A stretch of 41,480 bases of DNA, taken from IMG/VR virus record IMGVR_UViG_3300013131_000094, positions 1-41,480 of that record; one strand, 5' to 3'. Below are positions 4,365 to 22,000 of this stretch, one piece after another (position 1 is the first letter of the stretch; the number at the start of each line of letters is the position of its first letter). This DNA comes from a virus. Both the position numbers and the translations under genes were made by a program. Below the pieces are notes generated by a model. That model was not told the origin of the DNA, did no database searches, and saw nothing but the letters and a program-made list of their open reading frames with translations.

Positions 4365-7300
4365 TTAGACTCCTCGACGAACTTGGGGATCTTGGTCGTA
4401 GGTCAGTGTGATGAGATTGGTTGTCAACGTATCGAACAACCCGGTCTCAATATCCTGTGCACCTGTCTCTTGGTTGACGAAATACGTCACAACCCAGGTG
4501 TAGGCAGAGGGTTTTGCATCATTTGAGCAACTGACGAGGACGCGATTGCCTGTTAGGCTTTGGCGAAGGCTTTGGACATTGTTGGCAACCTCTGCGGTGT
4601 AGTAGAGATAGCTTTGCTTCTCTTGCAGTGTCGCTGTTCCTGCCTGGACCTTCTGATCCAACGCTAGCCACTGCGGATACCCTACCACTTGCGGACGCAA
4701 CGTAGTATCGTCGGAATAACCTTGGATTGCAAGACCCTCCTTTCCGATAATGAAGGCGCTATCCACAGAGGTGCTGAGAGGCTGGCCTGTCAGATTGGGT
4801 GTCTGGGTCAATAGCTTGAGGTCTACACCAGAACGGGTCACGGCTCGGTAGAGGTTGGTTGGGCCGCCCCCATTGCTTGTGGAGTGGTTTAGAGGATCTT
4901 GAAGCAGATAGGTAGATACGGTTGCAGTGGACCATTGGGGTAACACGATGAAGTCCCCTGCTTGACTGGCTTGGAGAGACTCTTGTAGAATGTGTGCTCC
5001 GTCTGCCAATCGAAGTAGTGCCAGAGGGCTCAGGACGTAGCTGACACCCTGTACGGATTCGATCGTCTTGACAACATTGGACTGGCGTAGCGATTGGCTG
5101 TTCAGCACAAGGTTCTGAAGTGCGGCTCGGATACGGGGCTCTACGACATCGCGCACCGCCCCAGCTTGCAACAGGACGGTCGCCGTAATATCGACGGGTA
5201 GTAGGTTGCATTGCTTGACAACAACATCCGCCGTGAGGTGTCTGGATTGCTCCAAGCTGTTCTGAGCAACCCCTACGACAAGGTTGGTGCTGTATTGGAC
5301 AGTGAAGTTTTGGTTGTACTGGTAAGTAACACTTACAACTTGGCCAGAGAGAATGGTGCTGGATTCGGTGCGTTGAATCGACCATGTATCTGTTCCTGTT
5401 GGTGCAACCAAACGATAGTCTGGGTTTGCCTCGAAAGGCGAGACAGGCTTGTAGGTGGTGGTGCCGTCTGTATTGGTCACCACGATCGTCAATTCGTTGA
5501 CGCCAAGGCGGTTGAGCCGTTTTGAGTACAAGCCGATCAACGTATGCTGCTCTGTTGCTTGCGAGACCCCGCCCAAGGTTGTGTCTGAGGTGATCTGGAC
5601 GTAATCCTTTGCCATGCTCGATTCCCCCAGTAAGAAAGGGGATTCCAGCTTGTAAAGGTCGTACAGATTGGGATTGATGGTCGCCCCGGATTGATCAGTG
5701 ACTTGGAGAATCTGATCGACGGGCTGCCGTGAGAAGTAATGCCTATTGCTTGTCTGGAAGCGAAAATCCCCCTGAATGACATCGGAAATAGCGAGATCCG
5801 TAGGGTCGTTGTACCCAGAGGCAAGCTGAATCGTATCAAACGAGAGGTACTGAATTCCCGTTAGCGAGAACGTATAGCCCCGAGAGAGATTGCGGATTCC
5901 GGTGCTCAGGATCTGCGATAGAGGGGTTGCAGGCGTGACTCGACTCGTTCCATCTGGGTTAAGCGAGACGACGCGAAGGATAAGATCCTGTGCATTGCCC
6001 ACCACTTCAAAAGTAGCTCCGATGACATTCTCATACGAGAAGGCAAAGGTGTCTTGGTAGGTTGTAGGCTGCTGGCCCCGAACCCAACAATCGACTTTGC
6101 CCCCAGTGTGCTTACCTTGAGAGTCAATATCCCGTAGCATGTATGGACTGCCTGCACTGATGATCTGGCTGCTCAGGACACCTGGAATGGCAAAGGCACT
6201 ATTCTTATATCCTTGGTAGGTGCCCGTATCTGAGGTGAGACCCCCGATGCAACGCATCGCCAGATTGTAGTTGGACTCTTGGGGTGTCCCTCCAAAAGTA
6301 TCCGCCGTGTTGGTTACGAGAATCCCCGAGATGTTGGTGCGGTTGATGGCTTTCTTTGGTACATTGCCTTGGATTCCTTGGTTGACAGCCTGAACAAAGG
6401 CATTGGTGCTGTAGTAGCCTGTGGTCGGGTCGTAATAGGCCGCCATATTGTTGGCATCGAAGGAGGCATTGATCAGGGTCGTGAACTCCACCGATCCCGC
6501 ATAGACAACAGTGCCCACAGGCATGTTGATCGTTGTATTGAGCGGTTGCTTCACATAGAAGGACACTTCACCCCGAGACTGTTTGCCCGGTTCACGAACC
6601 TTGCCTTGGTTGGAAGCCAGTTTCTCAAAGGAAAGATCGATAATGGCTTGGACCTGATTCAGATTGGTCAGCCGGAATGCTTGTGCAAGAGCCAACTTGT
6701 AGGTAGACTGCCGGACAGCAACCGAAGCTCCCGTCAGGTTAGGATCGTCGATCGACAATAGCGTTGTAAAAGATTGCGCCTTGTGAATGAAATCGAGAAT
6801 GAATCCGAGACGCTCAGACTCGGAGGCCATTGGGTCGATGAACGTATCCCGCAGTACGGAACCGGGTTGTACCGCGACATCGGGTTGGGCTTCATGGATC
6901 AATCCAATCAAATCCTGAGTGACCTGTTGCCTCGTTACGGTGGGGAATGAACCGATAGCAGGGGTAATCTGCATAGGAACTCCCGAGGCATCCAAAGAAA
7001 GCGCCGTCTCCGTTTCTTGCAGCGTATCTGGGTTCCAATAGACTGCGGTAACGGCATAGTAGACGGGTTGGTTTTGAGCAACAGAAGCCAAGGTGCTGCT
7101 TGGGATGGTTGGGTACCGGGAAGCCATATCGCCGTAGCGGTCGTGGATATACTGGAAATGGCCAACATTCTGTACGGATTCAACCGAGAAGTTGTATCGG
7201 ATATGCTGGTCTCCGGGCGAAGCCTCATAGTTGAGTGACTGGTCAAAGTCATTCTGTAGGAGGGCTTGAGTATCCTGGTCTACTTGACTCCCTTGGACAC

Positions 7301-7901
7301 GAATCGCAATTGGCGGGCTGGTGTTGCTGAGGTAGCTATCGATCGACAGGTTGCCGAGCACGGTGGCTCGTTCGGTTGTGATGGAGTCTTGAGTCTGAAT
7401 CAAAGCAGGGTTGATTCTGGTGTAGCCTTCGGTGCCGCCACCGGGTTGGGATGTAGCGTAGATGTTGATCCCGAGAAGATTCTGGGTGCCCAAGGCTTCG
7501 GTTGAGACAACAATCTTGACTGCGCCATCCAAGCGTTCTACTACGATTCCCGTAGGGGGTTGATAGAGAGCCTGGTCCGTTTGGGTCGGGACATACTTGA
7601 TCTGTACCGTAGCCGGGGCAGTGGTTGTGCCCGAGGTGAGCACAGAGCGAACTTCAATAGTGTTCTGGCCAGGGACTAGTCTCAAGCCTTGTGGATAGGC
7701 CGCAGGGTTCGGGATGGTGAAAATACCCCCCTCAAAGGAGACTAGGTTGGGGTCTTGGACCCAAGCAGCGCCACGTAGGGCAATCTCCATGTAGGCAGTC
7801 TGGGCGTCACACGTTCCGGTAAGAAAACGATAACCCGCAGAGGTACTGAAAATGAAGGTGCTGCGGGCGATCCCGTCTGGACCATAGAATTGAGGATTCA
7901 T
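4365..7901 (-). CDS. Baseplate J/gp47-like wedge protein, enlarged (1178 aa)
   Basis: The J/gp47 family forms the baseplate wedge ring of contractile tails and links the hub to fibres and sheath. The core starts near residue 316 with a helical segment containing PDVAVQPGSVLRDTFIDPMA. It is followed near residues 460-475 by the beta motif MPVGTVVYAGSVEFTTL and near 510 by QGNVPKKAINRTN; both are typical of J proteins, which have a P.GT.v...g..F pattern and then GNVp. The end (LLPVDITATVLLQAGAVRDV and the following helices) also matches the J C-terminal layout. About 315 extra residues precede the core, including a beta-sandwich-like region, and the protein is about two to three times the usual J length. 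It lies 1 base upstream of the next structural gene. The start at 7901 has only a weak AGAGAC ribosome binding site. Confidence 0.85.
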   Translation of the reverse strand: MNPQFYGPDGIARSTFIFSTSAGYRFLTGTCDAQTAYMEIALRGAAWVQDPNLVSFEGGIFTIPNPAAYPQGLRLVPGQNTIEVRSVLTSGTTTAPATVQIKYVPTQTDQALYQPPTGIVVERLDGAVKIVVSTEALGTQNLLGINIYATSQPGGGTEGYTRINPALIQTQDSITTERATVLGNLSIDSYLSNTSPPIAIRVQGSQVDQDTQALLQNDFDQSLNYEASPGDQHIRYNFSVESVQNVGHFQYIHDRYGDMASRYPTIPSSTLASVAQNQPVYYAVTAVYWNPDTLQETETALSLDASGVPMQITPAIGSFPTVTRQQVTQDLIGLIHEAQPDVAVQPGSVLRDTFIDPMASESERLGFILDFIHKAQSFTTLLSIDDPNLTGASVAVRQSTYKLALAQAFRLTNLNQVQAIIDLSFEKLASNQGKVREPGKQSRGEVSFYVKQPLNTTINMPVGTVVYAGSVEFTTLINASFDANNMAAYYDPTTGYYSTNAFVQAVNQGIQGNVPKKAINRTNISGILVTNTADTFGGTPQESNYNLAMRCIGGLTSDTGTYQGYKNSAFAIPGVLSSQIISAGSPYMLRDIDSQGKHTGGKVDCWVRGQQPTTYQDTFAFSYENVIGATFEVVGNAQDLILRVVSLNPDGTSRVTPATPLSQILSTGIRNLSRGYTFSLTGIQYLSFDTIQLASGYNDPTDLAISDVIQGDFRFQTSNRHYFSRQPVDQILQVTDQSGATINPNLYDLYKLESPFLLGESSMAKDYVQITSDTTLGGVSQATEQHTLIGLYSKRLNRLGVNELTIVVTNTDGTTTYKPVSPFEANPDYRLVAPTGTDTWSIQRTESSTILSGQVVSVTYQYNQNFTVQYSTNLVVGVAQNSLEQSRHLTADVVVKQCNLLPVDITATVLLQAGAVRDVVEPRIRAALQNLVLNSQSLRQSNVVKTIESVQGVSYVLSPLALLRLADGAHILQESLQASQAGDFIVLPQWSTATVSTYLLQDPLNHSTSNGGGPTNLYRAVTRSGVDLKLLTQTPNLTGQPLSTSVDSAFIIGKEGLAIQGYSDDTTLRPQVVGYPQWLALDQKVQAGTATLQEKQSYLYYTAEVANNVQSLRQSLTGNRVLVSCSNDAKPSAYTWVVTYFVNQETGAQDIETGLFDTLTTNLITLTYDQDPQVRRGV

Positions 7902-7983
7902 TTGGTTTCGTCTCTGTGTGTTTACATCGGTTGAGTAAGGCTGAGCCCTACTCTATTGTTGGTCAAGTGATAGTCAGATTAGG

Positions 7984-8019
7984 GCAGAGAATCTGCTATT
8001 GGGTCACTAATTAGCTTAT
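7984..8019. promoter_or_regulatory. Conserved upstream block: 13-base inverted repeat plus 15-base AT-rich motif
   Basis: The block contains the perfect inverted repeat GCAGA-GAA-TCTGC (7984-7996) and the motif CACTAATTAGCTTAT (8005-8019), which includes the palindrome CTAATTAG. Both are unchanged in all three cassettes, whereas the bases between them vary. This invariance suggests a protein-binding or promoter function. The direction of action and the ligand are unknown. Confidence 0.5.
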
Positions 8020-8044
8020 GAGGGCGATAGAGGGTAGCTGTTGT

Positions 8045-8071
8045 GAGTGTTCCACAACGTGTGGAACACTC
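8045..8071 (+). promoter_or_regulatory. Hairpin in 5' leader, copy 1
   Basis: Perfect 11-bp arms, GAGTGTTCCAC and GTGGAACACTC, flank the loop AACGT. It lies 20 bases upstream of the AAAGGAG ribosome binding site of the gene at 8108. There is no U-tract after it, so it is not a standard terminator. Copy 2 keeps the pairing through paired changes in both arms. An RNA leader structure or a dimeric-protein operator would both fit. Confidence 0.75.
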
Positions 8072-8091
8072 TGTTAGATGGAACAGATGCC

Positions 8092-8098
8092 AAAGGAG
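8092..8098 (+). promoter_or_regulatory. Strong ribosome binding site AAAGGAG that sets the start at 8108
   Basis: AAAGGAG is followed by a 9-base spacer and then ATG at 8108. An in-frame ATG at 8078 lies upstream of this site and has no ribosome binding site of its own, so 8108 is preferred. The same arrangement occurs at 13235 and 14883. Confidence 0.8.
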
Positions 8099-8107
8099 AG
8101 TAAAGAA

Positions 8108-8695
8108 ATGGAAGACTTGCGTACTAAAGTAATCAAACTGGCTCATCAGAATCCAGATTTGAGGCAACACTTGTTGCCGTTGCTTCATACTGCTGCAGTC
8201 CCGGATACTCTCAGTACCGCCAAGGCAAGATTACAGGCAGCAATCAAGGCACAAGCCAAGGTGCCTGAACGCTATGCAGAGGCTCTTTACAATAGGGCTA
8301 AGATGCTGGAGACAAAACTCCGTGGTCAATTCAAGGCAAAGCAAGATGAGGTCTCCCCCGAAGATATGCGGGAGTTGCACACGTTGCAGTTGGATGTTGC
8401 AGCGCGACTCAAGGAATTGGCAGGTATCAAACTGCCTGAGAAGTGGGACTTCCCAAATACACGTCGCGACTTAGCCACCTTCTCACGCTTAGGTGAAGCC
8501 CCCCCGTTCGTGGATGAGGCATCTGGGCACGCTTCTCTTATCCAGCATGCTGCGTGGGTTGTATTGCGTAAGGCAGAAACTTTGCCAGGAATGGCAGGAT
8601 ACTACAAGGAGTATCTTGACTTCTATGCCAAACAGGGGCGTACCCCTAGCGTTTTGGAGCAAATGGCTTTTCAATTTGGGGCGTACAACAAATGA
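8108..8695 (+). CDS. Cassette-led protein with N-terminal LAHQNPxLR tag, unknown payload (195 aa)
   Basis: I do not recognise the function. Residues 1-27 carry the shared tag (KLAHQNPDLRQHLLPLL), which is encoded by the repeated cassette. The rest is mostly helical and charged: about residues 35-110 look like a long helical hairpin rich in K, E and A, and the C-terminal part has the aromatic cluster MAGYYKEYLDFYAKQ. No signal peptide, membrane segment or catalytic motif was seen. Its stop overlaps the start of the next gene (ATGA at 8692-8695), which implies translational coupling. It is transcribed opposite to the flanking tail genes. If the tag is a targeting signal, this would be a cargo protein; that is inference. 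Confidence 0.8.
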   Translation: MEDLRTKVIKLAHQNPDLRQHLLPLLHTAAVPDTLSTAKARLQAAIKAQAKVPERYAEALYNRAKMLETKLRGQFKAKQDEVSPEDMRELHTLQLDVAARLKELAGIKLPEKWDFPNTRRDLATFSRLGEAPPFVDEASGHASLIQHAAWVVLRKAETLPGMAGYYKEYLDFYAKQGRTPSVLEQMAFQFGAYNK

Positions 8696-9009
8696 AAGAC
8701 TTGAGAAAAGAAATCATCAAACTAGCACATCAGAATCCAGAACTGCGTTCTCAGTTGCTTCCGTTGGTTCACCAAGCTGCTGTAGGCCCCCGCAACCCTG
8801 CTGAGCGAAAGCTGGCCGATGAGCTTGATTCTGATCCTAGCACAACTGAATTGGTGCAGATGCTAAAGGACAAGCCATCCCAAGAAGAGTTGACCCATAG
8901 CAAGGTAGATGCTGCTGGATGGAAGCGGGCTGTCACCGAGGCTTTACGTATGTCGAGGGAGAAGTCCAAGAAGAATGCAGGACTGAAGACGGCCGCATGT
9001 CAGTCTTGA
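8692..9009 (+). CDS. Small tagged protein (105 aa), possibly truncated
   Basis: The start codon overlaps the upstream stop. Residues 1-27 (MKDLRKEIIKLAHQNPELRS, then QLLPLV) are a diverged copy of the tag. The body is a short helical, charged segment (DSDPSTTELVQMLKDKPSQE) without a known motif. The last residues may not be original: a second reading frame with protein-like sequence opens at 8987 and continues to 9331, so the original protein may have been longer and cut short by a frameshift near 8990-9010. The function is unknown. Confidence 0.7.
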   Translation: MKDLRKEIIKLAHQNPELRSQLLPLVHQAAVGPRNPAERKLADELDSDPSTTELVQMLKDKPSQEELTHSKVDAAGWKRAVTEALRMSREKSKKNAGLKTAACQS

Positions 9010-9331
9010 GTGGATCTTGCTGAAAACGCAACCCTACCCGAACGGGCATGAAGTCAGGTATGGGATTGTCAAGGCATCTGGTGTGATTCGGACTGCGCTT
9101 GGAAATATCTGAACATTTGAGCGTCCTTTTGAATGCCATCTGCAAATCGCGGAGGCCAACTCAGGCTTCGTGAATATCATTGCAATGAATGTACACCCAG
9201 TACCGTCAGACGACGTTCTGATTGACAGGGTGATCTTGAATGATGACAGCTTCAGCGACAAGCTCTTCGCGATGCTCGGCACGATCCCGGAATCCCAGGA
9301 ACTCAAGCAACTCCGTGGCAATCAAAACTAA
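8987..9331 (+). pseudogene. Decayed coding remnant with an in-frame TGA, downstream of the tagged gene
   Basis: This frame opens after a TGA at 8984-8986 and reads as plausible protein (TQPYPNGHEVRYGIVKASGV and on). It meets a TGA at 9110-9112 and continues for 72 more codons (TFERPFECHLQIAEANSGFV, later PVPSDDVLIDRVILNDDSFS) to TAA at 9329-9331. It has no clear start with a ribosome binding site. The frame differs from that of the gene at 8692. I read it as the broken C-terminal part of that gene or of a neighbour. It ends 3 bases before the convergent minus-strand gene. A sequencing error at either defect could restore a longer protein. Confidence 0.5.
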
Positions 9332-9334
9332 GCC

Positions 9335-10147
9335 CTAGAACACACCGTAGCGACCATATTGGGTTGACCAATTGAGTGTCAGGATCGTCTCGGGATTCGC
9401 CTCTTGGTACTGATAGAACTTCTCAGAAACCTGCCACTCAAACCCAATCTTGACAGATAGAATGATGCTGTCTGGGGTTGAGAAGGCATATCGGATTGCA
9501 TCATTCGGCACACTGTAACATACCCAACCAATCACTTCATTGTGAAGTCGTGCCATCCACTGGTCTTGGGTGCAAATAATTTGCTTTGAGTCAACCTGGG
9601 GGAATGTTTGGGCAATCTTCTGTGTAGCGTTCCCTATCGGTGTTGTGGGACCCACAGCAGACGCCTTGAGTTGCTCTCGCCAAACCGGGGAGCTTGCCAA
9701 AAAGTGGAAGACGCTCGCCTTCGCTTCCTTGTTGGGAATTCCCAACAACGACTCCAAAGGCTTTGGGTCGGTGCAAAGCAGGTACTTCTGTACAGGGCAT
9801 TCTTTCAGGATCAACTCATTCTTGATGAGTCTCCGGTAACTTTGAAAGTATGCTCTCCAAATTGAAATCTCACAGAACAGGTAGCCGTTTGAAGGGATGA
9901 CATTCGGAGCCTCATCCTGTTTTAGGGAGACGATGGGTGCTGTCATTACCCGGTTGCCCATAATGCGGGGTCTGACAGGCAGAATGTACCGGGCTTGTTC
10001 GGGTTGTTGCGAGAGTTGCGTTTGGCGCTTCTCGTATTCAGGGTGCTCACCTGACCACCATACAAAGCGAGTGCCGTCCGGGGCACGTTCTCCCGGATAG
10101 AGTAGAATGTCAATGGTATTCGATTTTAGGATATTCTCGATTGCCAT
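9335..10147 (-). CDS. Hypothetical tail-module protein (270 aa)
   Basis: I do not recognise this protein. It is a mixed alpha/beta, soluble-looking protein with many aromatic residues (TRFVWWSGEHPEYE near residue 26, and IGFEWQVSEKFYQYQEANPE near the end). It has no signal peptide or membrane helix. It lies between the 961-residue protein and the plus-strand island in the tail operon, 43 bases after the previous stop, with only a weak ribosome binding site. Its place among baseplate genes suggests a small baseplate component or assembly factor. That is inference from context only. Confidence 0.7.
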   Translation of the reverse strand: MAIENILKSNTIDILLYPGERAPDGTRFVWWSGEHPEYEKRQTQLSQQPEQARYILPVRPRIMGNRVMTAPIVSLKQDEAPNVIPSNGYLFCEISIWRAYFQSYRRLIKNELILKECPVQKYLLCTDPKPLESLLGIPNKEAKASVFHFLASSPVWREQLKASAVGPTTPIGNATQKIAQTFPQVDSKQIICTQDQWMARLHNEVIGWVCYSVPNDAIRYAFSTPDSIILSVKIGFEWQVSEKFYQYQEANPETILTLNWSTQYGRYGVF

Positions 10148-10190
10148 GATGGGCGTAGCTTACCCTAATTCGTCAAGGCGAGCCTGTGCG

Positions 10191-13076
10191 CTATCCTTTG
10201 GGCAACAGCAAATCCAAGACGAATTGACTTCCAGGCACGGTAGGGACGACAATACACCCGCCTGCCCCATAGGAGAGGGCGCTATCTTGCGGTTTGTTGG
10301 ATGCTCCGATGAACTTGCTGGTGATGTCGTCAGATCCTTTGGCAAAGACAACCAAAGCAGCACACTTGGGCGTTTCAAAGAAGGTCAATTGTTGGGTCAA
10401 TCTGTCAATCTGAGTCAACAGTTGCTGAATCTCTCGGATCCGAGCACTCAAGAAATCGATGTACTCTTGAAGCAGGTTCGCACTCGACCCCAACGACACA
10501 TTCGTTGCGAGCATGAACTGATTGACCCGCAGAAGCATATCGGAAAGTCCTGGCAGGCGATCTCCTAACCGTAACGCATACCAAGCACTCGTTTGGCTGG
10601 ACTTGTTCTGTACGGCAGTGATGACGTTCAAGATCAGCAAGGCTTGCTCCAATACCTTCTTACCCAAGGCGTGCTCTGTGCCGTCTGCATCCGTAAAGAG
10701 ACGCCGGAATGGTGCCGCATACAAGGTGCTCGCATCCATCGAATCCCCCGCAGCGGATCCCGCACTGTACAGCAAAGGAGGGCCATCGGGCAGGAAAGGT
10801 TGCTTGGCAATCGGGGTCTGCCTCAAATGAAGCCACTTCTTCTCAGTGCCCTTTGAGGTGGGGTCGTATTCTGATTCCGCACCATAGGTGTACTTCTCTT
10901 GGGCCATGTGTCGCTTGAAGGCAATATCAAAGGCCACAAGAGCATTGTCGGTTGTAGGTGTTCCTTTCCACCCTGTACCCATGTAGATAGCACGGGCCGT
11001 CGCATCATCAATCGATCCTACGATGGTCCATTGTGTCGTGCCATAGTACGGGAACGGGGTCAGATCCAACGTCTCCGAAGCCAAGAAATCCTCCCGATCG
11101 GACAGATCCACAAGCTGACTGATCCCCGAAGCAATCCCGGTGCCTTCGGGTGCCTGGTAGAACTTTTGAAAGAAATCTGCCAGTGTGGATTGCAGGACTG
11201 GGTTGGTGCTCAGGATGCCTGGGCTCTTGCTCAGCTTGGCAAGATCCTCTAACTTGGTCGTGCGCAACTCGACTGTACGCTCAGACAGGAACTTCTCCAA
11301 AGCAGGGTCCGAGCCTGCAACGGCATACATTTTGTCGATGATGCGCTGGATATTGGAGGTCACCTTCTTGACCCAAACGCTAGGGTCCAGATTCTTACCT
11401 GCATAGAAATCAGAGGGGGTTTGCCCTTCCAAGACGCTCAGCAGAACTTGATCCAGGCCGTTGAGCGTGCATTCTCCAAAGACACTTTCCGCGTAGGCAC
11501 CCCGAGTCATAAATTGGTGTTGCCTGATCTGTTCAAACCGGTCCTTGTCGATCGTCTTGCCTGCAATGAGAGGCTTGGTATCGATCCGCAACAGGGCGAG
11601 CAGGAATAGAGCAACCCTTACACTCTCAAGGTAGGTGTTGGTGTACTGGGTTGGGAAGGTAACGGTGGCGACTTCGGAAGGTCGGCCCCGGTTGGCTGTT
11701 AGGTTTTCCCCCCAGATGAGAGGCACCACGACTTCTTTGGATGCCGCGTGTGTAGCCGAGCAGTCAAACCGCAAAGCCCATTGCGCAGAATCGGGAGTGC
11801 CACTCTTACGGATATAGTCAGAGACGGCCGCGACACGCAAGTAATAGGTTGACGGTTGCTCCGTGTCGTTGGTGCGGACAATCCCTTTTTCAGTGGTCTC
11901 AAACGTGGCATTGTAAGGCAGGTCCTTTTGCTCTACAACAAACTCATAGGTGTTGCTGGGGCTGAGTTGAACTTGATCAATCAGGAATGTTCGCTGTAGA
12001 TAATGCCGGCCGGTCTTCGCATCATACAGTTGATCCAGAGCGATGATCTCCGTATCGGCTAAGGAGCGTTTGGCGAAATAGAAGGTAGAACCTGGCTTGA
12101 AGCTGATCTGCCCAGCCTGACTGGTTAGATTGCTGGTGGCTTGGTTCTGTTGTGGGATTTGGACGGAACCGGCACCGCCATACAGGATGATCGGAGCGTC
12201 GTCTTCCGAGCGCACAATAACTGATTCTCTTGCTTCATTCTTGGAGACATCCCGTCCATCCGATACCTTCTTACGGTTGCAGAACAAAGCCAAGCCTTGG
12301 GGCACAGTGGAGACTTCAAGAATGAAGCCATCCGCAGGGGGCATTGGGATGGTGATGCTGCCCATACGGTTGGAACGGGCGATTTGCCATTGCAACGTCA
12401 GTGCTGTAGGATTTTGATTGCCTGTCTTGAGATTGCGGTATGCTTGGGAAAGGTTGGCAAAGGAGCCGCGCACGCCCATATTCTTGTAGAGAGGCTTGAT
12501 AGGTCCGCATGCCGGCAGAGTCTCGCCCACCGTATTGATGTTGAACAGGCGCATGAACTGTTGGACAGTACGGGTGAGGTTGCTGATACCTGTCGTCTCC
12601 GCAGTGGCGTAGAAGAACACCGCCATCACCATCGTTTCAGGGGAAACGGAGGGCCTGTTGGGGTCAAGGCGATCGGTTAGCTTGCTGAGCATCCTGCGCT
12701 CATAGGCCGTGTATCCGCCAAGAACGTCAGAAAACGGATACGTCAGCAGAGGGTAGTCTGAGGTGAAATAGAGGCCGAGTTGGTCAATGTCTCGGATCGC
12801 AGATTGAACTGCTTTCAAGGTTTCCGCAATCAAGGAATTGATTGGGTTGACCAGAGAGACGGTGAAGGTTTTGGATAGCTGTAAGAATCCTTGCAGGACA
12901 GAGAGAATTTGGTTGAAATAGTCCGCGATGTTGTGTACGGTGCCTTGGAAGGTCGTCAGCACAGCGGGCTTGCCTTTGAAAAGCTGTGCCTCAAACCACC
13001 CTTGGGAGAGTTGCTGCAATTGCTGGTTGGTTTGTGCTAGAGTCTGGACTCCAGGTACTTTCGTTTCAGCGGGCAT
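10191..13076 (-). CDS. Large baseplate/tail structural protein of unknown family (961 aa)
   Basis: The start at 13076 has an AAGAGGA ribosome binding site. The N-terminal 130 residues are helical and Gln-rich (TLAQTNQQLQQLSQGWFEAQ). The middle contains beta-rich segments, one of which (YYLRVAAVSDYIRKSG) looks like part of a fibronectin-type or similar sandwich domain. Near residues 880-915 there is an amphipathic coiled-coil-like stretch (RIREIQQLLTQIDRLTQQLT), followed by a short beta C-terminus ending in VLDLLLPKG. No enzymatic motif was seen. It lies between gp25-like and J-like genes, so I infer a wedge or peripheral baseplate protein. Confidence 0.75.
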   Translation of the reverse strand: MPAETKVPGVQTLAQTNQQLQQLSQGWFEAQLFKGKPAVLTTFQGTVHNIADYFNQILSVLQGFLQLSKTFTVSLVNPINSLIAETLKAVQSAIRDIDQLGLYFTSDYPLLTYPFSDVLGGYTAYERRMLSKLTDRLDPNRPSVSPETMVMAVFFYATAETTGISNLTRTVQQFMRLFNINTVGETLPACGPIKPLYKNMGVRGSFANLSQAYRNLKTGNQNPTALTLQWQIARSNRMGSITIPMPPADGFILEVSTVPQGLALFCNRKKVSDGRDVSKNEARESVIVRSEDDAPIILYGGAGSVQIPQQNQATSNLTSQAGQISFKPGSTFYFAKRSLADTEIIALDQLYDAKTGRHYLQRTFLIDQVQLSPSNTYEFVVEQKDLPYNATFETTEKGIVRTNDTEQPSTYYLRVAAVSDYIRKSGTPDSAQWALRFDCSATHAASKEVVVPLIWGENLTANRGRPSEVATVTFPTQYTNTYLESVRVALFLLALLRIDTKPLIAGKTIDKDRFEQIRQHQFMTRGAYAESVFGECTLNGLDQVLLSVLEGQTPSDFYAGKNLDPSVWVKKVTSNIQRIIDKMYAVAGSDPALEKFLSERTVELRTTKLEDLAKLSKSPGILSTNPVLQSTLADFFQKFYQAPEGTGIASGISQLVDLSDREDFLASETLDLTPFPYYGTTQWTIVGSIDDATARAIYMGTGWKGTPTTDNALVAFDIAFKRHMAQEKYTYGAESEYDPTSKGTEKKWLHLRQTPIAKQPFLPDGPPLLYSAGSAAGDSMDASTLYAAPFRRLFTDADGTEHALGKKVLEQALLILNVITAVQNKSSQTSAWYALRLGDRLPGLSDMLLRVNQFMLATNVSLGSSANLLQEYIDFLSARIREIQQLLTQIDRLTQQLTFFETPKCAALVVFAKGSDDITSKFIGASNKPQDSALSYGAGGCIVVPTVPGSQFVLDLLLPKG

Positions 13077-13126
13077 CGTGGTTCCTCTTGGGACTATGCT
13101 GGGTGTTTTCCGATAGTCAGATTAGG

Positions 13127-13162
13127 GCAGAGAATCTGCTATCAGACCACTAATTAGCTTAT
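13127..13162. promoter_or_regulatory. Conserved upstream block, copy 2
   Basis: The inverted repeat GCAGA-GAA-TCTGC (13127-13139) and CACTAATTAGCTTAT (13148-13162) are both identical to the other copies, while the 8 bases between them differ (TATCAGAC here). Confidence 0.5.
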
Positions 13163-13187
13163 GAGGTCGATAAGGGATAGCTGTTGT

Positions 13188-13214
13188 GAGTGTTCCGCAT
13201 GTTGCGGAACACTC
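13188..13214 (+). promoter_or_regulatory. Hairpin in 5' leader, copy 2, with compensatory base pair
   Basis: The arms are GAGTGTTCCGC and GCGGAACACTC with loop ATGTT. Compared with copies 1 and 3, the second-innermost A-T pair is now G-C, because both arms changed together. This keeps all 11 pairs and shows selection for the paired structure or for dyad symmetry. Confidence 0.78.
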
Positions 13215-13250
13215 TGCTAGATGGAACAGATGCCAAAGGAGACTAAAGAA

Positions 13251-13638
13251 ATGGAAGACTTGCGTGCCAAAGTAATCAAACTGGCACATCAGAATCCAGA
13301 AACACCTGTTGCCTTTGGTACATAACGCAGGACAACCCCGGATTAATCAAAAAGAACTTGAAAAGGCCATTCTGGACGGATGGGACACTTGGTCAGATTA
13401 TGAAAATCTGATGCACGACGGTGTGGATATCCATGATTGGCGAGGCAGTAAGGTTCACATTGAAAGCACACACTTCCCCAATCCTAACATGATTGAAGTT
13501 TCCTTCAAGTTGGTCCTCTCGGATGCTTCAACTAATGTCTTGGTGGATGGTAAAAACCTTATTTTCAAGGGGGTTGTTGCGTTGCCCTCCTTTTCGATGT
13601 ACTTTGAGAAGGAGAGAAATCCTGAAATCTTCATGTAA
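13251..13638 (+). pseudogene. Frameshifted tagged gene (tag separated from its payload by an 8-bp deletion)
   Basis: From ATG 13251, preceded by AAAGGAG, the frame reads the tag up to HQNPE, then runs into a stop at 13323-13325 after 24 codons. The rest of the protein lies in another frame, starting with the tag remnant LLPLVHNAGQ near 13306 and ending with TAA at 13636-13638. It contains about 105 residues (WDTWSDYENLMHDGVDIHDW and a beta-rich second half). Removing the 8-base deletion would join the two into one protein of about 130 residues. The payload frame is intact and could still be translated from TTG at 13309, so decay may be recent. The payload is unrelated to the other tagged proteins. 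Confidence 0.7.
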
Positions 13639-13657
13639 ACTGTGTTAGTAACTGCCT

Positions 13658-14728
13658 TTACCCAAGTGTCATTCCATTGACTGTGCTGTGTACACCTTTC
13701 GTAGCATAGACAATGTTGAGTACGACAGGTTCGGATGAGGCGTTCTGCACCGTCACCTCTACAAAGAATACCGTAGGATCGTCAGCCGAAGGGAATGTCT
13801 GCACGTTCAGGATGCTGTAAAGCTGTTCCTTGAGCGTGATTCTCTGTACTTTGCCTTGCTGGCGTTGCATGGTCTGATGAGCCGTCAAAGCTCGCCGCAC
13901 TTCCGCCGAGAGGGCCGCCGCTACCGCCATTGTTGCTTTGGATCCGATCCGAGACAAGATGGTCGTACCGTACTCTGGATGGTACGGATTGGACCCCTGT
14001 TGTGTCAAGAGAATCTTCAAGCATCCCTGATAGAGTAGATCCTCATTTTGGATCATGATGAGAGAACCCGCAGGAACGGTCCCAGAGGCTTGGACCGTAA
14101 AGCGGTAGTCATTCTCGACTCCAGAGGCTTGACAACGCAAGCACCTACTTTGGTCCGTCACATAGGTGACTCGCAACTCGGGATTGGTTGGGATTGTTTG
14201 GTTGAATCGAGGATACCGGGCTGTCAACTCCAAAGGAGGTGTTACGAGAGACCATCCAGGATAAAGTTGCCTGCCTGTGGCCCCGGTTTGTTTGAAATGT
14301 AAACCGGAGACTGCACGACCCATAACTTGGATGAGAGAACGATCGCCCAAGACTTGATTGTCCGCTAAGACTAACATACCCCTCTCGACAGAAGCGAGGT
14401 TGGCTTGCCTGTTGATCCGCTGTGCAATCTGTTCGGCAAGGTAGGTTCCCGGCAATAGGGTGTATGTGTAGGTTGCGGAGGACGTAACGAGGGTGAGATC
14501 CTGTTCGTTCGTGATGATCTCGTAAGGGCCGGGGGCGAAGCTCTTGAGTCGTGCCGGGATCTGTAGCCCTGTTTGTGGGATTGTGGTAGAGTCTGCCAGG
14601 ACGGAAACCAATGTGCTACTCAGGATAGGCATGCGTGTTGGAAGGGATTGCCTATCTGAACCCAACGTGACACGCTCTTCTACGATGAGGTGATTGCAGG
14701 GCCATGCTAATTGTAGATCCTTGGACAT
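13658..14728 (-). CDS. gp25-like baseplate wedge protein with long N-terminal extension (356 aa)
   Basis: Residues about 231-345 match the gp25/W wedge fold: LKILLTQQGSNPYHPEYGT is the usual start with the PEYG signature, followed by helices and then a strand region (DDPTVFFVEVTVQNASSEPV). gp25 joins the baseplate wedge to the sheath initiation complex in contractile systems and is usually about 110-150 residues, so about 220 residues are added here. The extension contains C-x-x-C (CLRC, residues 196-199) just before GVENDYRF. I saw no second Cys pair, so zinc binding is uncertain. The start at 14728 has a GAGAGGTC ribosome binding site. Its end faces the frameshifted plus-strand gene 19 bases away. 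Confidence 0.82.
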   Translation of the reverse strand: MSKDLQLAWPCNHLIVEERVTLGSDRQSLPTRMPILSSTLVSVLADSTTIPQTGLQIPARLKSFAPGPYEIITNEQDLTLVTSSATYTYTLLPGTYLAEQIAQRINRQANLASVERGMLVLADNQVLGDRSLIQVMGRAVSGLHFKQTGATGRQLYPGWSLVTPPLELTARYPRFNQTIPTNPELRVTYVTDQSRCLRCQASGVENDYRFTVQASGTVPAGSLIMIQNEDLLYQGCLKILLTQQGSNPYHPEYGTTILSRIGSKATMAVAAALSAEVRRALTAHQTMQRQQGKVQRITLKEQLYSILNVQTFPSADDPTVFFVEVTVQNASSEPVVLNIVYATKGVHSTVNGMTLG

Positions 14729-14774
14729 TTTTCACTGACCTCTCGTTTGTTGGTTTTCTGATAGGGTTGTTAGG

Positions 14775-14810
14775 GCAGAGAATCTGCTATCGGGCCACTA
14801 ATTAGCTTAT
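14775..14810. promoter_or_regulatory. Conserved upstream block, copy 3
   Basis: The same 13-base inverted repeat (14775-14787) and 15-base motif CACTAATTAGCTTAT (14796-14810) are present without changes. Confidence 0.5.
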
Positions 14811-14835
14811 AGGGTCGATAAGGGATAGCTGTTGT

Positions 14836-14862
14836 GAGTGTTCCACACGTTGTGGAACACTC
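14836..14862 (+). promoter_or_regulatory. Hairpin in 5' leader, copy 3 (loop inverted relative to copy 1)
   Basis: The arms are the same as in copy 1 (GAGTGTTCCAC / GTGGAACACTC), but the loop is ACGTT instead of AACGT. The 27-base segment is thus the exact reverse complement of copy 1. Confidence 0.75.
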
Positions 14863-14898
14863 TGTTAGATGGAACAGATGCCAAAGGAGAGTAAAGAA

Positions 14899-15534
14899 AT
14901 GGAAGACTTGCGCACCAAAGTAATCAAACTGGCACATCAGAATCCTGATTTGAGGCCACACTTGTTGCCGTTGCTTCGCACGGCGAAGTTGTTTGAGGAT
15001 GCCATCAAAGGTAGGAAGTTCCGCAACCCTGAGACTGGCAATCAGGTTGAGTTTGGCTCTCTTCCGGCTGAGGAGCAGAAGCGCATTCGTTCGCAGTGGG
15101 TCAAGAAGAATCCTCGCGGTTCGGGCGGCAGCGGGGACGATCCCAAGCAGATGATGCAGGATGACTCGGACAAGTACTTCGCTGAGCATGTCTCGGGTGG
15201 CTTGACAAAGAAGAGCCTTTCAGATGCTTTGAAAGATACGGAATGGGCTCCCCGTGGTAAGGGTTCCTATGATAAGCAGCGGCAGTTTGTTTCTTTGCTC
15301 CTGGACCATAAGGATCACAAGAAGCTTCCGATGCATGTTGTATTCTCGGGTTCGCATTACACGAAGGGTGACAAGACAGGTTACGTTAGTGTAGAAGGTC
15401 GCCACGGCCACCACGATGATACTTTCAAGCTCTCGGGCAATCCTGAGCAGGATGCTAAGGCAATGCACAAGACTTTGAAAGAGCTGATTGACGACTACAA
15501 GACCTTTGACAAGCTGTATGACAACCCCAAGTAA
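14899..15534 (+). CDS. Tagged protein with second shared FRNPxTGNQV module and unknown payload (211 aa)
   Basis: The start is ATG 14899, 9 bases after AAAGGAG (14883-14889); an in-frame ATG at 14869 lacks a ribosome binding site. Residues 1-27 are the tag (KLAHQNPDLRPHLLPLL). Residues 32-69 hold a second module (KFRNPETGNQVEFGSLPAEE, then QKRIRSQW) that is also found in the protein at 16864. After a Gly-rich linker (about 73-80), residues 90-211 form a distinct alpha/beta payload with LPMHVVFSGSHYTKGDKTGY and a His-rich GRHGHHDD segment near 168-174. No enzyme family was recognised; the histidines might bind metal. It is the first gene of a six-gene plus-strand island. Confidence 0.82.
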   Translation: MEDLRTKVIKLAHQNPDLRPHLLPLLRTAKLFEDAIKGRKFRNPETGNQVEFGSLPAEEQKRIRSQWVKKNPRGSGGSGDDPKQMMQDDSDKYFAEHVSGGLTKKSLSDALKDTEWAPRGKGSYDKQRQFVSLLLDHKDHKKLPMHVVFSGSHYTKGDKTGYVSVEGRHGHHDDTFKLSGNPEQDAKAMHKTLKELIDDYKTFDKLYDNPK

Positions 15535-15550: not shown

Positions 15551-16438
15551 ATGCCAAGCCAGAAACAAGCCAATACAGAAGCGATGTGGTCACTCCTCAA
15601 CGGATTGGTTGCCAATGCTCGTGTCGAGTCGCATCGCATGCGTCACTTGGTCAATCGTGGTTTGGCAATCATCGAAAACGACACCGAGGAACAGCGCGAG
15701 CATCTCTACCAGAAGGCTGGTGATTTGATCGTCGCGATTCCTGAGCGTCTCGGTCAGTTGGAGTCTTTGCTCGATCAAGCCAATTATGCGTTGGCTAAGT
15801 TGGAGCAGGACTTCCTCAAGTCTAGGGTCTCTCAAGGTGTCAAGAAAGAGATTGATGAGGTGATGACTCCCGCCATCCCGGTACCCGCAAAGCAGGCAGA
15901 GCTTGCCCAGAGGATTGCTTCTCGCTGGGAAGCACAAGCGGCTCCGCAGACTACGAAGCAGGCAGACTACATGCCTCCTTTGGGCAGACCGGGTGGCCCT
16001 TGCCATGTTGTCAAACGGATTGTCGATAAGGTACACAATCCAAGCATGCAACATGAGTTGGTTGACGACGTTGAACGGGGTTTGGATCTCAATAATCAAG
16101 ATGCCAGCAAGGTCTATCCGTTGGACGTAGAGATGGGGGGTGGGATTTGGCGCAAGATGTTTCTTATGAGCCACAGTCAATATCGTATGGATCTACGTGG
16201 CATTGGGGTACAGCAGATTCAGAAGTCGTTGGGGGATCTCTCTACAGAGATGCAGAGGAATCCACGTCTGATGGCAGAAGTGATGTCGAGTGGGTCGTCT
16301 TATCGGTGGGACGATCCTAAGAGAAAGTTGACTGTTGTCTTGCAATCGCAAGGGCGGGATGCAGTCCGCATCATTACAGTCTACCCAACGGGTCAGTCGG
16401 ATCCCAGAGCACCTGGAGAAGGCGGTTGTGAAGTTTAA
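15551..16438 (+). CDS. Hypothetical protein in the tagged-gene island (295 aa, no tag)
   Basis: The start at 15551 is chosen because GAAGAG lies about 10 bases upstream, 16 bases after the previous stop; the open frame extends further upstream into the preceding gene. Residues about 1-105 are strongly helical (HLVNRGLAIIENDTEEQREH, LGQLESLLDQANYALAKLEQ), like a coiled-coil bundle. Residues about 145-295 are alpha/beta (CHVVKRIVDKVHNPSM, RKLTVVLQSQGRDAVRIITV). It lacks the tag found in its neighbours. No known domain was recognised and the function is unknown. Confidence 0.75.
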   Translation: MPSQKQANTEAMWSLLNGLVANARVESHRMRHLVNRGLAIIENDTEEQREHLYQKAGDLIVAIPERLGQLESLLDQANYALAKLEQDFLKSRVSQGVKKEIDEVMTPAIPVPAKQAELAQRIASRWEAQAAPQTTKQADYMPPLGRPGGPCHVVKRIVDKVHNPSMQHELVDDVERGLDLNNQDASKVYPLDVEMGGGIWRKMFLMSHSQYRMDLRGIGVQQIQKSLGDLSTEMQRNPRLMAEVMSSGSSYRWDDPKRKLTVVLQSQGRDAVRIITVYPTGQSDPRAPGEGGCEV

Positions 16439-16453
16439 CTGAGAGGCTGTATC

Positions 16454-16858
16454 ATGAGTCAAGATTTGAGATCCCAAGTGATCAAGTTGGCCCACGCTAA
16501 CCCAGAATTGCGTCCGCACTTGCTTCCTTTGCTAGAACAAACAGAGAAGGTAGCAAGCTCTTGGGAGCCTGTAGTGGGGGCAGGGCTAGAGAAATTCCGC
16601 CGTGTGTTTGGCCAACCCGAGCGGGATCAGGTCACGGCAAAGAAGTTTGGGCGTAAGACGGTCTTCTGTGTGAACTCTGGTGTCTTGCGTTTGTATTGTG
16701 CTGGAGATGATAGAAATATCTACAGCATGAAACTGCACACAGGGTTCCCGCCTGCGGATAGGGCTTGTTTGCTCTTGGTGGATCGGGCTTCCGGTCTTTT
16801 GGATCCGCTAGAAGCCCAAAAGGAAGGTATCTATTTCAACGGTCGTTTGGGGGTATAG
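16454..16858 (+). CDS. Tagged small protein (134 aa)
   Basis: Residues 1-28 carry a tag variant (MSQDLRSQVIKLAHANPELR, then PHLLPLLE) that is diverged in DNA from the cassette copies and has no cassette upstream. Residues 35-134 form a small, mostly beta payload (GRKTVFCVNSGVLRLYCAGD, then IYSMKLHTGF). No known family was recognised. A weak AGAGG ribosome binding site precedes the ATG, 15 bases after the previous stop, so it is probably co-transcribed from the cassette at 14760. Confidence 0.78.
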   Translation: MSQDLRSQVIKLAHANPELRPHLLPLLEQTEKVASSWEPVVGAGLEKFRRVFGQPERDQVTAKKFGRKTVFCVNSGVLRLYCAGDDRNIYSMKLHTGFPPADRACLLLVDRASGLLDPLEAQKEGIYFNGRLGV

Positions 16859-16863
16859 AGAAA

Positions 16864-17805
16864 ATGAGTCAAGATTTGCGTTCCAACATTATCAAGTTAG
16901 CGTACCAGAATCCTGAGTTGCGTGATCAGTTGCTTCCTTTGGTCAGCGAGAGCCAGTCGCGTACAGCGGGTGCCTTTGAGGACGACATCAAGGGTAAGAA
17001 GTTTCGTAACCCGGCGACGGGTAATCAAGTCACCTTCAAGTCTTTGCCGGCTGAGGAGCAGACTCGTATCCGTAAGCAATGGCAATCCTCCCAGAAGGGT
17101 GAGGGTAAAGAAACGACCAATGAGAAGCCCGCTGAGGGCGTCAAGACACCCTCTTGGATGGGTGATGCTCTGGAAGGTCTGCATAAGGACTACGATCAGA
17201 CTCGGGATGCTCTTAAGCCAATCAACTATGCTTTGGCAAACGGCAAGCCGGTTACGGATAAGATGGTCAAGGAATTGGCTGATGCTGCCAATGAGGAGTA
17301 CCAGCATGTCGAGAAGAACGGGGCCACCTCTGAAGGCGCCCGTAAAGGATACGATCACCTCAAGAAGATTCTGAACTGGGCACTCGGTCAGTCGCAAGGT
17401 CACCTCCGGGAAGCACCCAAGCCGGATAAGCCTGCGAAGAAGCCTGCCAAGCCTTCAACGACCAATGAGAAGCCTGCCCCGAAGCCAAAGGCACCCAAGT
17501 CCAAGGGCCTGAATGTCCGCAACGTGATGACGCCTCGCTATGAAGGTCCCCATGCTTCGGAAGCCAAGCAGATTGCCAAGGACTACAATCTCAAGGATGA
17601 TGACTTGGACGATTTGGCCGATTGGCGGCGCGGTCGCCCCGAAGGCGGTAAGAAGTTGAGTTGGGATCGCCTCAAGTTGGAATTCCTCAAGGGAGCCAAG
17701 GATCCGAAGCAGCGTGAGCGCATGCTCAAGATGACTCCCAATGAGTTCAAAGCCATGTACTTGTCGATCGTTCACAAGGATGACATGGAAGGCGCTGAGG
17801 ACTAA
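16864..17805 (+). CDS. Tagged multi-module protein: tag, FRNPxTGNQV module, helical domain, Lys/Pro linker, C-terminal domain (313 aa)
   Basis: The start is ATG 16864, where the tag begins (MSQDLRSNIIKLAYQNPELR); the frame is open further upstream inside the preceding gene. Residues 1-27 are the tag. Residues 37-73 hold the second module (KKFRNPATGNQVTFKSLPAE), as in the protein at 14899. Residues 75-95 form a linker. Residues 96-180 are a helical bundle. Residues 183-215 form a Lys/Pro/Ala-rich linker (KPDKPAKKPAKP). Residues 216-313 form a helical charged domain ending in KMTPNEFKAMYLSIVHKDDM. The Lys/Pro linker might contact nucleic acid, but that is inference. Function unknown. Confidence 0.8.
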   Translation: MSQDLRSNIIKLAYQNPELRDQLLPLVSESQSRTAGAFEDDIKGKKFRNPATGNQVTFKSLPAEEQTRIRKQWQSSQKGEGKETTNEKPAEGVKTPSWMGDALEGLHKDYDQTRDALKPINYALANGKPVTDKMVKELADAANEEYQHVEKNGATSEGARKGYDHLKKILNWALGQSQGHLREAPKPDKPAKKPAKPSTTNEKPAPKPKAPKSKGLNVRNVMTPRYEGPHASEAKQIAKDYNLKDDDLDDLADWRRGRPEGGKKLSWDRLKLEFLKGAKDPKQRERMLKMTPNEFKAMYLSIVHKDDMEGAED

Positions 17806-19006: not shown

Positions 19007-22000
19007 TCAGAGACCCTTCTGCTGCATTCTAGCTTTAGTGATCTTCTGTTGCAAGCTCTGGTAGTTTTGCTCAAAGCGTTGAATCTGTACCAAGCTACCT
19101 TCGACTCGATGCACACGATAGCTGATCCAGCTATACCGAAGCTCTCTCAAGTGATCCTGGAAGTCTACCACCTGTTCGATACGATCCGGCAGCACGGGCC
19201 GCACGTCACTCCCAACGCCACTGTAGTCCGCGTAGGGAGTTCCGGGCGGTGTCAGTACCATCCCGTACCCAGAGCCGTCACTTGTCAGCCGTTCCAGTCT
19301 CTTATCCCCGATCCAAAAGCGACGGTCCAGTACGGAGAGGCAGTCTGCATCATTCAGGTAGGGCACAACGCCCACTTGGCCCTGTAGATCCTCAATCAGA
19401 GCATTGCGGAATACGCCTTGTCCCGCGGTAGCTACCGTGCTGTACCCCAGATCCCGACCATACAGTAACTCTTGGAAGTCATGGTAGTCACCCCCATGCG
19501 TACCTTCAACTGCTCCTTTGAATAGCTCGATCAGGCTCAGCATGCGCTCTCGCATCGTAAGAATCAGATTGATCGCCTTCACAGAGAGCTTACCATCTGG
19601 CCGGATAATGCGGTAACTGAAGGGCCTCAATGAGTAATGGGTATCCTGGTAGGATTGCGTAAATCCAGTCAGAGCACCATCATCATCCTTGCCTGGAAGC
19701 TGTGTGGGTCGTAAGTCACCCTGACCCTCAATCTGGTTGGTTGTGATGGCGCTATTGTGGATGGTGGGCAGGACCGTATACCCCCGCACAGCTTGCGCAG
19801 CAGGCTTACTTGGGAATACTTTGTCCGCAGTACGCGACCCCGCAAACTCCGTCATGCCACTGACCTTGAGGTAGTCTTGGTGAATCTCTTGTACCCAGAA
19901 ATGTCCTCGGTTATCATCCACTGGGGCTGGCCTGCCTGCCTGGTAATCAACGCCACGGGCCGAGATCCCAATATCGCCAAAGGGCCTCGTGCCACGCTCT
20001 GTAACGCCATCTCTTGAACCTACTACACCGGCAGGGTCAATCACGACAATATCACCAACCTGAATGCCCAGATTGCGGAAATCGGACACCGTATCGTCAC
20101 GAAGTTTATTGACCTCTGTGTCATAGGCTGCAATTCTTGCTGCACCAACCCCGGCAGGGATCGTGACGTAACCCCCTTTGAGAAGGATACGATCCGCCAC
20201 AACATCCAAGACGGTTCGACTCGTCAACAATTCACACAACTGCTCGCAGGATTGCTGGTGAGGCACGGTATGCTTGAGATAGACCTGGAACTGATAGGCT
20301 GTTGGGTTAGATAGGAACCCTGCATCCAAAACCCCAGGACTCTTGAGATACAGGGCATGTGCACTGACAACCTTCAGCACCTCTGCTCGTGCCACAACCT
20401 GTTCGCTCGGTTTCTTACTGGGGTCGATGATACGGACCTCATCGCCAGGTTGGATATTGACATCCTTGGAAGTGAATGCGCCCAGTTGAGTGCCTGAATA
20501 GATCCAACCGTTGCGGTAGTCGGGGTCGTCCGAAGCAAAGGTGTAGTTGTGGGCCGACAAAGCCCCAATCTGGTGATTGTGCCCGCCAATGATGGTTGTG
20601 TATCCAGTCACTCGGCCTCGGCGTGTCTCATAGGCATAGCGCAAGGGTTGGAAGTTGGCATCGACGGTTGCGTTGGCATCATGGAAGCGCCGAATACGCC
20701 GAACGTCAATCTGTACGGCTTGCTCGATACCACTAAAGCCTCGGACACCAACCTGACGGGCCGCCACAGGCTGACTGGAGCGGTCTACGAGTTTGGGCTG
20801 ATCCGAACCCCAAACCGAACCCCCAACACCCAGTAAACCTAACGTGTTGTCGTAGTTGATCTCAATCGTGTTGGCTGCAACGACATTGGTGACCAACCAA
20901 GAACCGTTGAGTGCTGTATTGCTATGATCTTGGATATGGATGGCGGAGCCAACATGCAAGCCATGCGCTGCATTGGTGAAGATTTTGCAGGGATTGGAAC
21001 CCGCGACACTCTGGAAAATGTCTGTCAGCCAAACACCTCCTACCATTGGTTGATTGGGTACCGGGAAGGATGGCTCTAGGAAGATACCTGCCTTGACCTC
21101 AATCGTATTGACCCCTACGGCATTGGCACTGCGTATTTGATCTCCTGGTACGAGGCACCGTGCTCCTGCGAGGGAGTGCACAGCACCCAAGTCTGCATGG
21201 TTGACAATTCCACTGAAATCGAGAATGGCTTGCACACCTGTGTAGACAGCTTCTTGCCTCGTCTCTACATAAAGTCCAGCCGTCTTTGGGATACAAAGGT
21301 TGCAACCCAGATTGCTTGCATTGGGTTGGGCATAAGCACCACTATAGACATCAATGTCCTGGAGAGCCGCGCCTGTGTATTCCACAGACCCAAAAGCAGT
21401 CTTGACCAATACGGAGCGCAATCCGCAGGTTCCCGCCGTCAGATCCACCACTACATTATCCGTAGGCAAACCGGGTACGCGGTGTAGCTGGATCGGGAGA
21501 TAGACCATCCCAGAGACAAGCAATCCTTTCTGAACGGCCAGCCAGAAATCCACATCAGCCAAGAAAGCGCCATTCTTATCCTGTGCGGATCCAGGCACCA
21601 TCAGGAATGTGTTGGTTGAGACAGTTCCTCCGATGTACTGCATGGAGACAACTTCGGTTGCTGCCCCATCCAGTTTGGTGATCAAGTAGAGACGAGGCAT
21701 CACACCATACTTGATTGCGTAGCTCACAGGCTCAGGGAAGATTCCCCAGTCTTGATTGCCAATCCAACTATGTGGGGTTGATGGCAACCCTGTATTCCCA
21801 GCCTCACCAAAGCGATACAGTGTATCAAGGGTGATTGTTCCTGTACCCACATCCCAAACTGTGACTTGTGGGAATTGTGTATTGCACCACCCAGAGTCCG
21901 AACCCAAGGTCGCCGTCACGTCCAAGCTCTCGGTTGTACCTCCCAGAACATCTGGGGTGATGGCGTGCCTGACGAGGCTCGTTCCCGTATGGTTTGCCGC

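Follow-up and report, generated by a model that had tools for sequence, protein, structure and literature searches.

A short peptide shared by unrelated proteins of uncultured huge phages as a candidate sorting tag for virion cargo

A peptide tag on unrelated phage proteins

We describe a peptide of about 26 residues, with the consensus M-x-LRSKLIRLAHENPELRPHLLPLLKxA, that occurs six times in a 41,480-nucleotide stretch of viral DNA (IMG/VR record IMGVR_UViG_3300013131_000094, positions 1 to 41,480; hereafter the window) and recurs on unrelated proteins of other uncultured phages. We propose, believing and doubting it in about equal measure, that this peptide is a sorting tag that marks many unrelated accessory proteins as cargo, most likely for the virion and for injection. 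An original prediction, made from the letters of the window, had seen a plug-in system in which new payload genes acquire a ready-made unit of expression and tagging. Much of that idea stands, as unrelated payloads follow a common 5′ unit, homology breaks off abruptly after it and natural recombinants exist in related phages; the unit common to these phages, however, is the protein tag and not a 218-bp cassette, and the upstream part of the cassette belongs to this phage only. That the peptide is the general unit follows from one copy of the cassette in which the tag is frameshifted, and from three genes of the window (at 8692, 16454 and 16864) that carry the peptide with no upstream block.

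A regular expression for the core of the tag gave 79 matches; shuffled proteins gave 1.0 and reversed ones 0. The 117 tags collected from 13 records are N-terminal in 100 cases, internal in 13 and C-terminal in 4. Conservation ends sharply at K-x-A, with alanine at the third residue after LLPLL in 57% of cases against a background of 9.5%, and the residue composition is background-like a few residues further on. Direct reading of the tags at 8108 and 14899 finds, in the conserved part, four differences that are silent and a fifth that falls on a variable site, which argues that the tag is kept as protein. The tag is predicted to form a helical hairpin, two amphipathic helices broken at N-P, the AlphaFold model placing helices at residues 4-14 and 16-39 (predicted local distance difference test score 89). 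A fold search with the 40-residue hairpin had a best E of 2.1 and so gave nothing significant, which is unsurprising for a helical hairpin of this length; a profile search of the PDB gave no credible match, no Pfam or PHROG model covers the tag in the window proteins, and its core sequences matched nothing by sequence in the literature searched. Tags within a genome are more similar than tags of different genomes (71.0% versus 67.1%, exceeding all 300 label shuffles), as would be expected with a cognate receptor or with gene conversion.

Two scans of IMG/VR, which partly matched the same contigs, located the tag at 49 and 62 loci, and each of 30 long IMG/VR contigs carries between 1 and 15 tags. 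An alignment of 48 tags proved too diverse for such collection scans and a narrower one worked. The 485-kb uncultured huge phage LR745208.1 has 11 copies; beyond it no convincing tag was found in 50,697 phage records, and none in annotated isolates, while stretches matching the pattern in 84,980 prokaryote genomes include none that encodes a tag. Several tag-bearing contigs share baseplate proteins with the window at about 25-60% identity, and a topoisomerase IB gene is present in 12 of the 13 records tested; the tag-bearing phages are therefore probably one diverse clade of uncultured huge myoviruses. A scan of IMG/VR with the gp25-like protein as single query returned no relative, whereas a local tblastn against the tag-bearing loci did find relatives.

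Recombination within the tag

Judging from pairs of related genes, recombination within the tag is a means by which payload or tag is swapped. The tagged genes of a related trio of phages are arranged as an array. Gene G003:19090 is 96% identical to G004:48721 from -29 to +80, after which the match ends, and it matches the payload gene G004:47331 from +41 onward (98% over +12 to +368, and identical over the stretch shown); this split match points to a natural crossover inside the tag. At G009:20805, the payload of G003:20021 (97% identical) starts directly after LLPLLKT and is joined to a different tag and an extra domain. Shuffling of neighbouring genes by homologous recombination is thus seen at the tag in related phages. 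Homology between tagged genes of one genome has a median extent of 0 to +71 (274 pairs), typically beginning at the first LR codon and rarely reaching upstream of -20, and in some genes it extends 20-40 nt around the ribosome binding site (RBS).

Ordinary gene duplication with later divergence of the payload would account for payloads that are partly related within a genome and for the second module that the genes at 14899 and 16864 share after the tag. We find this hardly credible as a general explanation, since identity falls abruptly to background at the end of the tag, orthologous payloads occur with exchanged tags and payloads have wholly different known domains. Gradual divergence of whole genes, which would have spoken against the plug-in idea, was not seen.

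Payloads and genomic setting

The 96 payloads fall into 58 clusters, and 49 of these hold a single payload. Most tagged proteins are small and have no assigned domain; a few large tagged open reading frames (ORFs), like the topoisomerase IB proteins, are multidomain with effector domains, and several tags can occur inside one large protein. The domains assigned to payloads are ART-PolyVal, RelA_SpoT, RNA ligase, WGR, DUF2958, DUF5710, DUF3846 and pentapeptide repeats, each in 1-3 of 135 proteins. ART and RelA/SpoT domains are found in polyvalent proteins, which are predicted to be injected by phages (PMC5512222). PADLOC returned no match for the 135 tagged proteins, and the NCBIfam matches among them are to repeat or solenoid proteins and are little informative.

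Tagged genes adjoin baseplate genes in the window and in four other cases (G006, G012, G021 and L121). The arrangement of the window recurs in G006 (locus L044), where the gene directly upstream of the gp25-like gene, on the opposite strand, is tagged and has a different payload; in G012 one follows the m4 homologue on the opposite strand, and in L049 and L121 tagged genes lie upstream of the gp25-like gene on the same strand. The sites near gp25-like and m4 genes therefore recur while the payloads differ. This setting could mean that tagged proteins are minor structural parts assembled through the shared hairpin onto the exterior of the virion, on the baseplate or capsid surface, and the repeat folds of the YdcK/beta-solenoid and pentapeptide payload families would suit such a role. 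We nonetheless judge it improbable: the payloads gave no match to any known structural family of virions, many of the tagged genes are remote from structural genes, and the enzymatic payload domains make little sense there.

A proposed model for the function of the tag

We propose a model in which the tag would dock its cargo into the virion during assembly, probably into the head, so that it is delivered along with the DNA. A dedicated phage-encoded receptor would bind the tag, which may be removed by cleavage after LLPLLKxA; the destination in the virion, the cleavage and the receptor are all three steps that we infer. The cargo reading is supported by the unrelated payloads, the conservation at the protein level, the distribution confined to viruses and the effector-type domains, and loading into the virion is the most likely role by analogy with two characterised systems.

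In phage T4, IPI, IPII, IPIII and Alt enter the head by means of a common N-terminal capsid-targeting sequence (CTS; PMC9026906). Like the tag, the CTS is a short N-terminal peptide on different phage proteins, one of them an ADP-ribosyltransferase, with payloads that differ among related phages (PMC9026906), and the tag is likewise a short peptide common to unrelated proteins and N-terminal in most cases. The two differ in that the tag has about 26 residues in a hairpin broken at N-P against about 10, the sequences are dissimilar, the tag is also found internally and C-terminally and in up to 15 copies per contig, and its packaging and cleavage are putative. The tag probably works like a CTS; we do not claim membership of that family because the strictly N-terminal rule fails, sequence and length differ and packaging is an inferred step. 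In phage P1, a reporter is loaded into the head once it carries the 30 N-terminal residues of DarB (PMC9024508). The Dar proteins resemble the role proposed for the tag in that about 30 N-terminal residues direct a protein into the head and the cargo counters host defence; they have no common N-terminal consensus (PMC9024508), whereas that of the tag is strong. Several domain families are common to the payload and companion proteins and the polyvalent proteins of Iyer 2017, for which injection is expected (PMC5512222); tagged proteins differ from these in being mostly small, with a single payload, and in having the 26-residue tag as their common header, of which the consulted part of PMC5512222 gives no description. 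The CTS is one of two close functional parallels that the original prediction overlooked in stating that no named element has such a layout; the other, a T4 cassette, is taken up below.

Several points weigh against the virion as destination. The 17 internal and C-terminal tags among 117 are a misfit for a purely N-terminal cleaved signal, only a minority of the payloads have assignable domains, and tagged genes remote from structural genes are many. The higher similarity of tags within a genome may reflect shared descent or gene conversion and not a cognate receptor. No S78 prohead protease was detected, for which reason cleavage of the tag is a guess; searches for an S77 protease and for T4 gp23 also gave no match and are uninformative, since their controls were silent. 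We know of no virion proteome, isolate or host for this clade.

The tag might alternatively serve docking or localisation within the infected cell, bringing proteins to a hub of replication or assembly, to a phage compartment or to a scaffold of several proteins. Its use irrespective of position, including several times inside one large protein, and the helical-hairpin fold, which is typical of docking peptides, fit such a role, as do companion proteins with related short motifs that carry topoisomerase IB and RNA-repair domains. We take this to be unlikely, if a serious contender, because the assigned payloads have the flavour of injected effectors, which better fits the virion, and because neither tubulin/PhuZ nor the beta subunit of a multisubunit viral RNA polymerase was found in any of the 13 records, the 485-kb one included. 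With the positive controls of these searches responding in 13 and 14 genomes, these absences make a phiKZ-type nucleus unlikely.

Should the tag load cargo for injection, its sequence alone would flag the effectors that are probably injected by a large group of uncultured phages with mostly unannotated genes. Effector discovery there would become a simple search, the swapping of payload genes would be explained and injection of large protein cargo by huge phages would become directly testable. Were the destination other than the virion, a single short peptide on dozens of unrelated proteins per virus would still be an unusual organising principle.

The repeat block of the window

Self-comparison of the window finds a direct repeat, D1, in three copies of 243 nt from 7951, 13094 and 14742, so that the block placed by the original prediction at 7969, 13112 and 14760 with a length of about 218 bp is real and somewhat longer than described. 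The other two copies are 77% and 88% identical to the first. Each contains, in order, an upstream region, a hairpin, the RBS AAAGGAG, an ATG and the first ~27 codons of a gene, and nucleotide homology stops, as predicted, at the LLPLL codons and a few bases beyond. The predicted composition holds in all copies with one qualification, namely that the tag of copy 2 is frameshifted from its payload: 8 nt are missing after the NP codons (window 13300-13330), the tag frame stops after 24 residues and the LLPL codons stand in the frame of the payload and not of the tag. This deletion reflects either a decayed gene or an assembly error, and no block lacks a tag altogether.

Each block heads one of three plus-strand gene islands (A, 7951-9009; B, 13094-13638; C, 14742 to about 18762) within a minus-strand baseplate operon, and lies, as had been noted, beside the start of a minus-strand gene, about 14-50 bp from its start codon. 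Apart from the gp25-like gene, further baseplate matches in this operon are weak. The simplest reading is that each block would drive its own island; as it also directly precedes the start of a minus-strand gene, that gene may be under its control too. In the proposed model a recently duplicated upstream block, of hairpin and RBS and plausibly a promoter and 5′ leader, perhaps divergent, would head the three cargo islands, and the other tagged genes of the window would ride downstream. Phage morons are self-contained sets of genes that bring a control region of their own and interrupt a structural operon on the opposite strand. The islands of the window resemble them in strand and putative control region and differ in having one 5′ unit and a protein tag in common.

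The window has exactly three occurrences of the hairpin pattern GAGTGTTCCNCANNNTGNGGAACACTC (at 8045, 13188 and 14836), where shuffles expect 0, and every copy has a perfect 12-bp stem and a 3-nt loop. As the stem of copy 2 carries a compensatory change from A-T to G-C and the loop differs in every copy, the hairpin appears to be kept by pairing and not by loop sequence, on the strength of three copies. The RNA of the block folds better than shuffles (z about -3 to -4), sigma-70-like promoter sites in it are at chance level and an Rfam search gave no match. An intrinsic terminator was considered and rejected because neither strand has a T run after the hairpin.

The upstream block with its hairpin is peculiar to this phage and a local add-on to the tag. 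Besides the three window copies, two block patterns, covering the upstream block and the hairpin, had no exact match in IMG/VR, the block aligned to no fetched tag-bearing locus, and distant blastn searches of phage records gave only chance-level matches of 26 nt (E about 0.8). Upstream of tagged genes in other phages, 2 hairpins were counted besides the three of the window, against a random expectation of 2.3; the hairpin is therefore not a general companion of the tag.

The promoter-plus-stem-loop (PeSL) cassettes of T4 were reportedly described by Arbiol in 2010 and Comeau in 2014, and our comparison draws on papers that cite them. As in the window, such a block precedes different genes in several places of one phage, and shuffling there is driven by homology (PMC4503421); unlike there, homology in the window runs into the codons and encodes a protein tag, and a sigma-70-like promoter is not above chance. 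A mobile regulatory cassette of this type, with promoter, hairpin and RBS as the essential part and the shared N-terminus as the mere margin of recombining homology, would suit a block that reaches -161 at 89% identity, the only within-genome pair to extend beyond -100, and stands at the head of all three islands. The tag, however, comes without the block in three window genes and in almost every gene of other phages, and it is conserved at the amino-acid level and found internally and at protein ends, so that this explanation is very improbable and, as applied to the tag, already largely refuted.

Companion motifs and neighbouring genes

A second motif, [RK][VI]A[ASR]R[YWF] (RVASRYL type), had 23 matches, compared with 0.6 after shuffling and 0 after reversal of the proteins. 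It lies at protein ends and module joints, mostly in proteins other than the tagged ones, and was found in the window and in G003, G004, G009, G010, G011, G012, G025 and G027. Its carriers include large topoisomerase IB proteins and the untagged gene of island C (Table 1), whose family is split into two genes in other phages with an RVASR-type motif at the joint. The family lies 1-5 kb from tags in several genomes and 17-27 kb in others, a co-location that is suggestive only. Two window genes and one gene of G027 have a third module, FEDxxKGxKFxNPxTxNxVxFxSLPxxEQxxIRxxW, after the tag, and it recurs in large untagged topoisomerase IB proteins; besides the window, the module was seen in G003, G012, G025 and G027. 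The second motif and third module suggest a wider labelling scheme. Extending the model, the tag, perhaps together with the RVASRYL motif, could be a general sorting code that labels a fluid cargo for virion loading and injection, recombination in the tag adding new effectors in a single step; this is possible, though we lean somewhat against it.

Several tags precede another short module, (Y/L)LxxHPxADxxxHxV (L013:10001, L013:10946, L024:11734, L030:5294, L038:8687 and L038:9644). Tag-bearing phages also encode proteins of >1000 residues in which topoisomerase IB is fused with other domains, HAD_SAK or 2′-5′ RNA ligase (last row of Table 1).

Table 1. Positions of block copies, tagged genes and neighbouring genes in the window, and of fusion proteins in other loci
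Feature	Position	Strand	Basis
Block copy 1 (upstream region, hairpin, RBS, tag codons; heads island A)	7951..8193	+	repeat D1, alignment
Hairpin of copy 1, 12-bp stem, 3-nt loop; putative 5′ leader or promoter element	8045..8071	+	
RBS AAAGGAG, 9 nt ahead of ATG 8108	8092..8098	+	sequence
Tagged gene 1, 195 residues; tag 8108-8197; payload with no family match	8108..8695	+	
Tagged gene 2, 105 residues; tag 8692-8781; no upstream block; start overlaps stop of gene 1	8692..9009	+	
Block copy 2 (heads island B; tag disrupted by 8-nt deletion)	13094..13336	+	repeat D1, alignment
Hairpin of copy 2, with compensatory base-pair change	13188..13214	+	alignment, pattern count
Truncated tag ORF, 24 residues (copy 2)	13251..13325	+	
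Payload frame of island B; its tag is in a different frame	13309..13638	+	
Block copy 3 (heads island C)	14742..14984	+	repeat D1, alignment
Hairpin of copy 3	14836..14862	+	pattern count
Tagged gene 4, 211 residues; second module after tag at 14992-15099	14899..15534	+	
Untagged gene of island C; RIASRW motif 15911-15928; clade-conserved family	15551..16438	+	
Tagged gene 5, 134 residues; no upstream block	16454..16858	+	
Tagged gene 6, 313 residues; no upstream block; second module 16975-17082	16864..17805	+	
Baseplate-type gene, start flanks copy 1; clade-conserved	4365..7901	-	PHROG 4226, E 0.0012
Clade-conserved gene of baseplate cluster, start flanks copy 2	10191..13076	-	comparison with clade loci
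gp25-like / sheath-initiator baseplate gene, start flanks copy 3	13658..14728	-	PF10934 E 9e-7; PHROG 2669, 975
Topoisomerase IB fusion proteins	L152:9755-13555, L174:9741-12977, L135:13585-16962, L161:13922-17932, L190:13139-16801		

Further along the window, a minus-strand ORF of 3791 residues (19007-30382) is conserved in pieces across the clade and lies upstream of the m4 and gp25-like genes.

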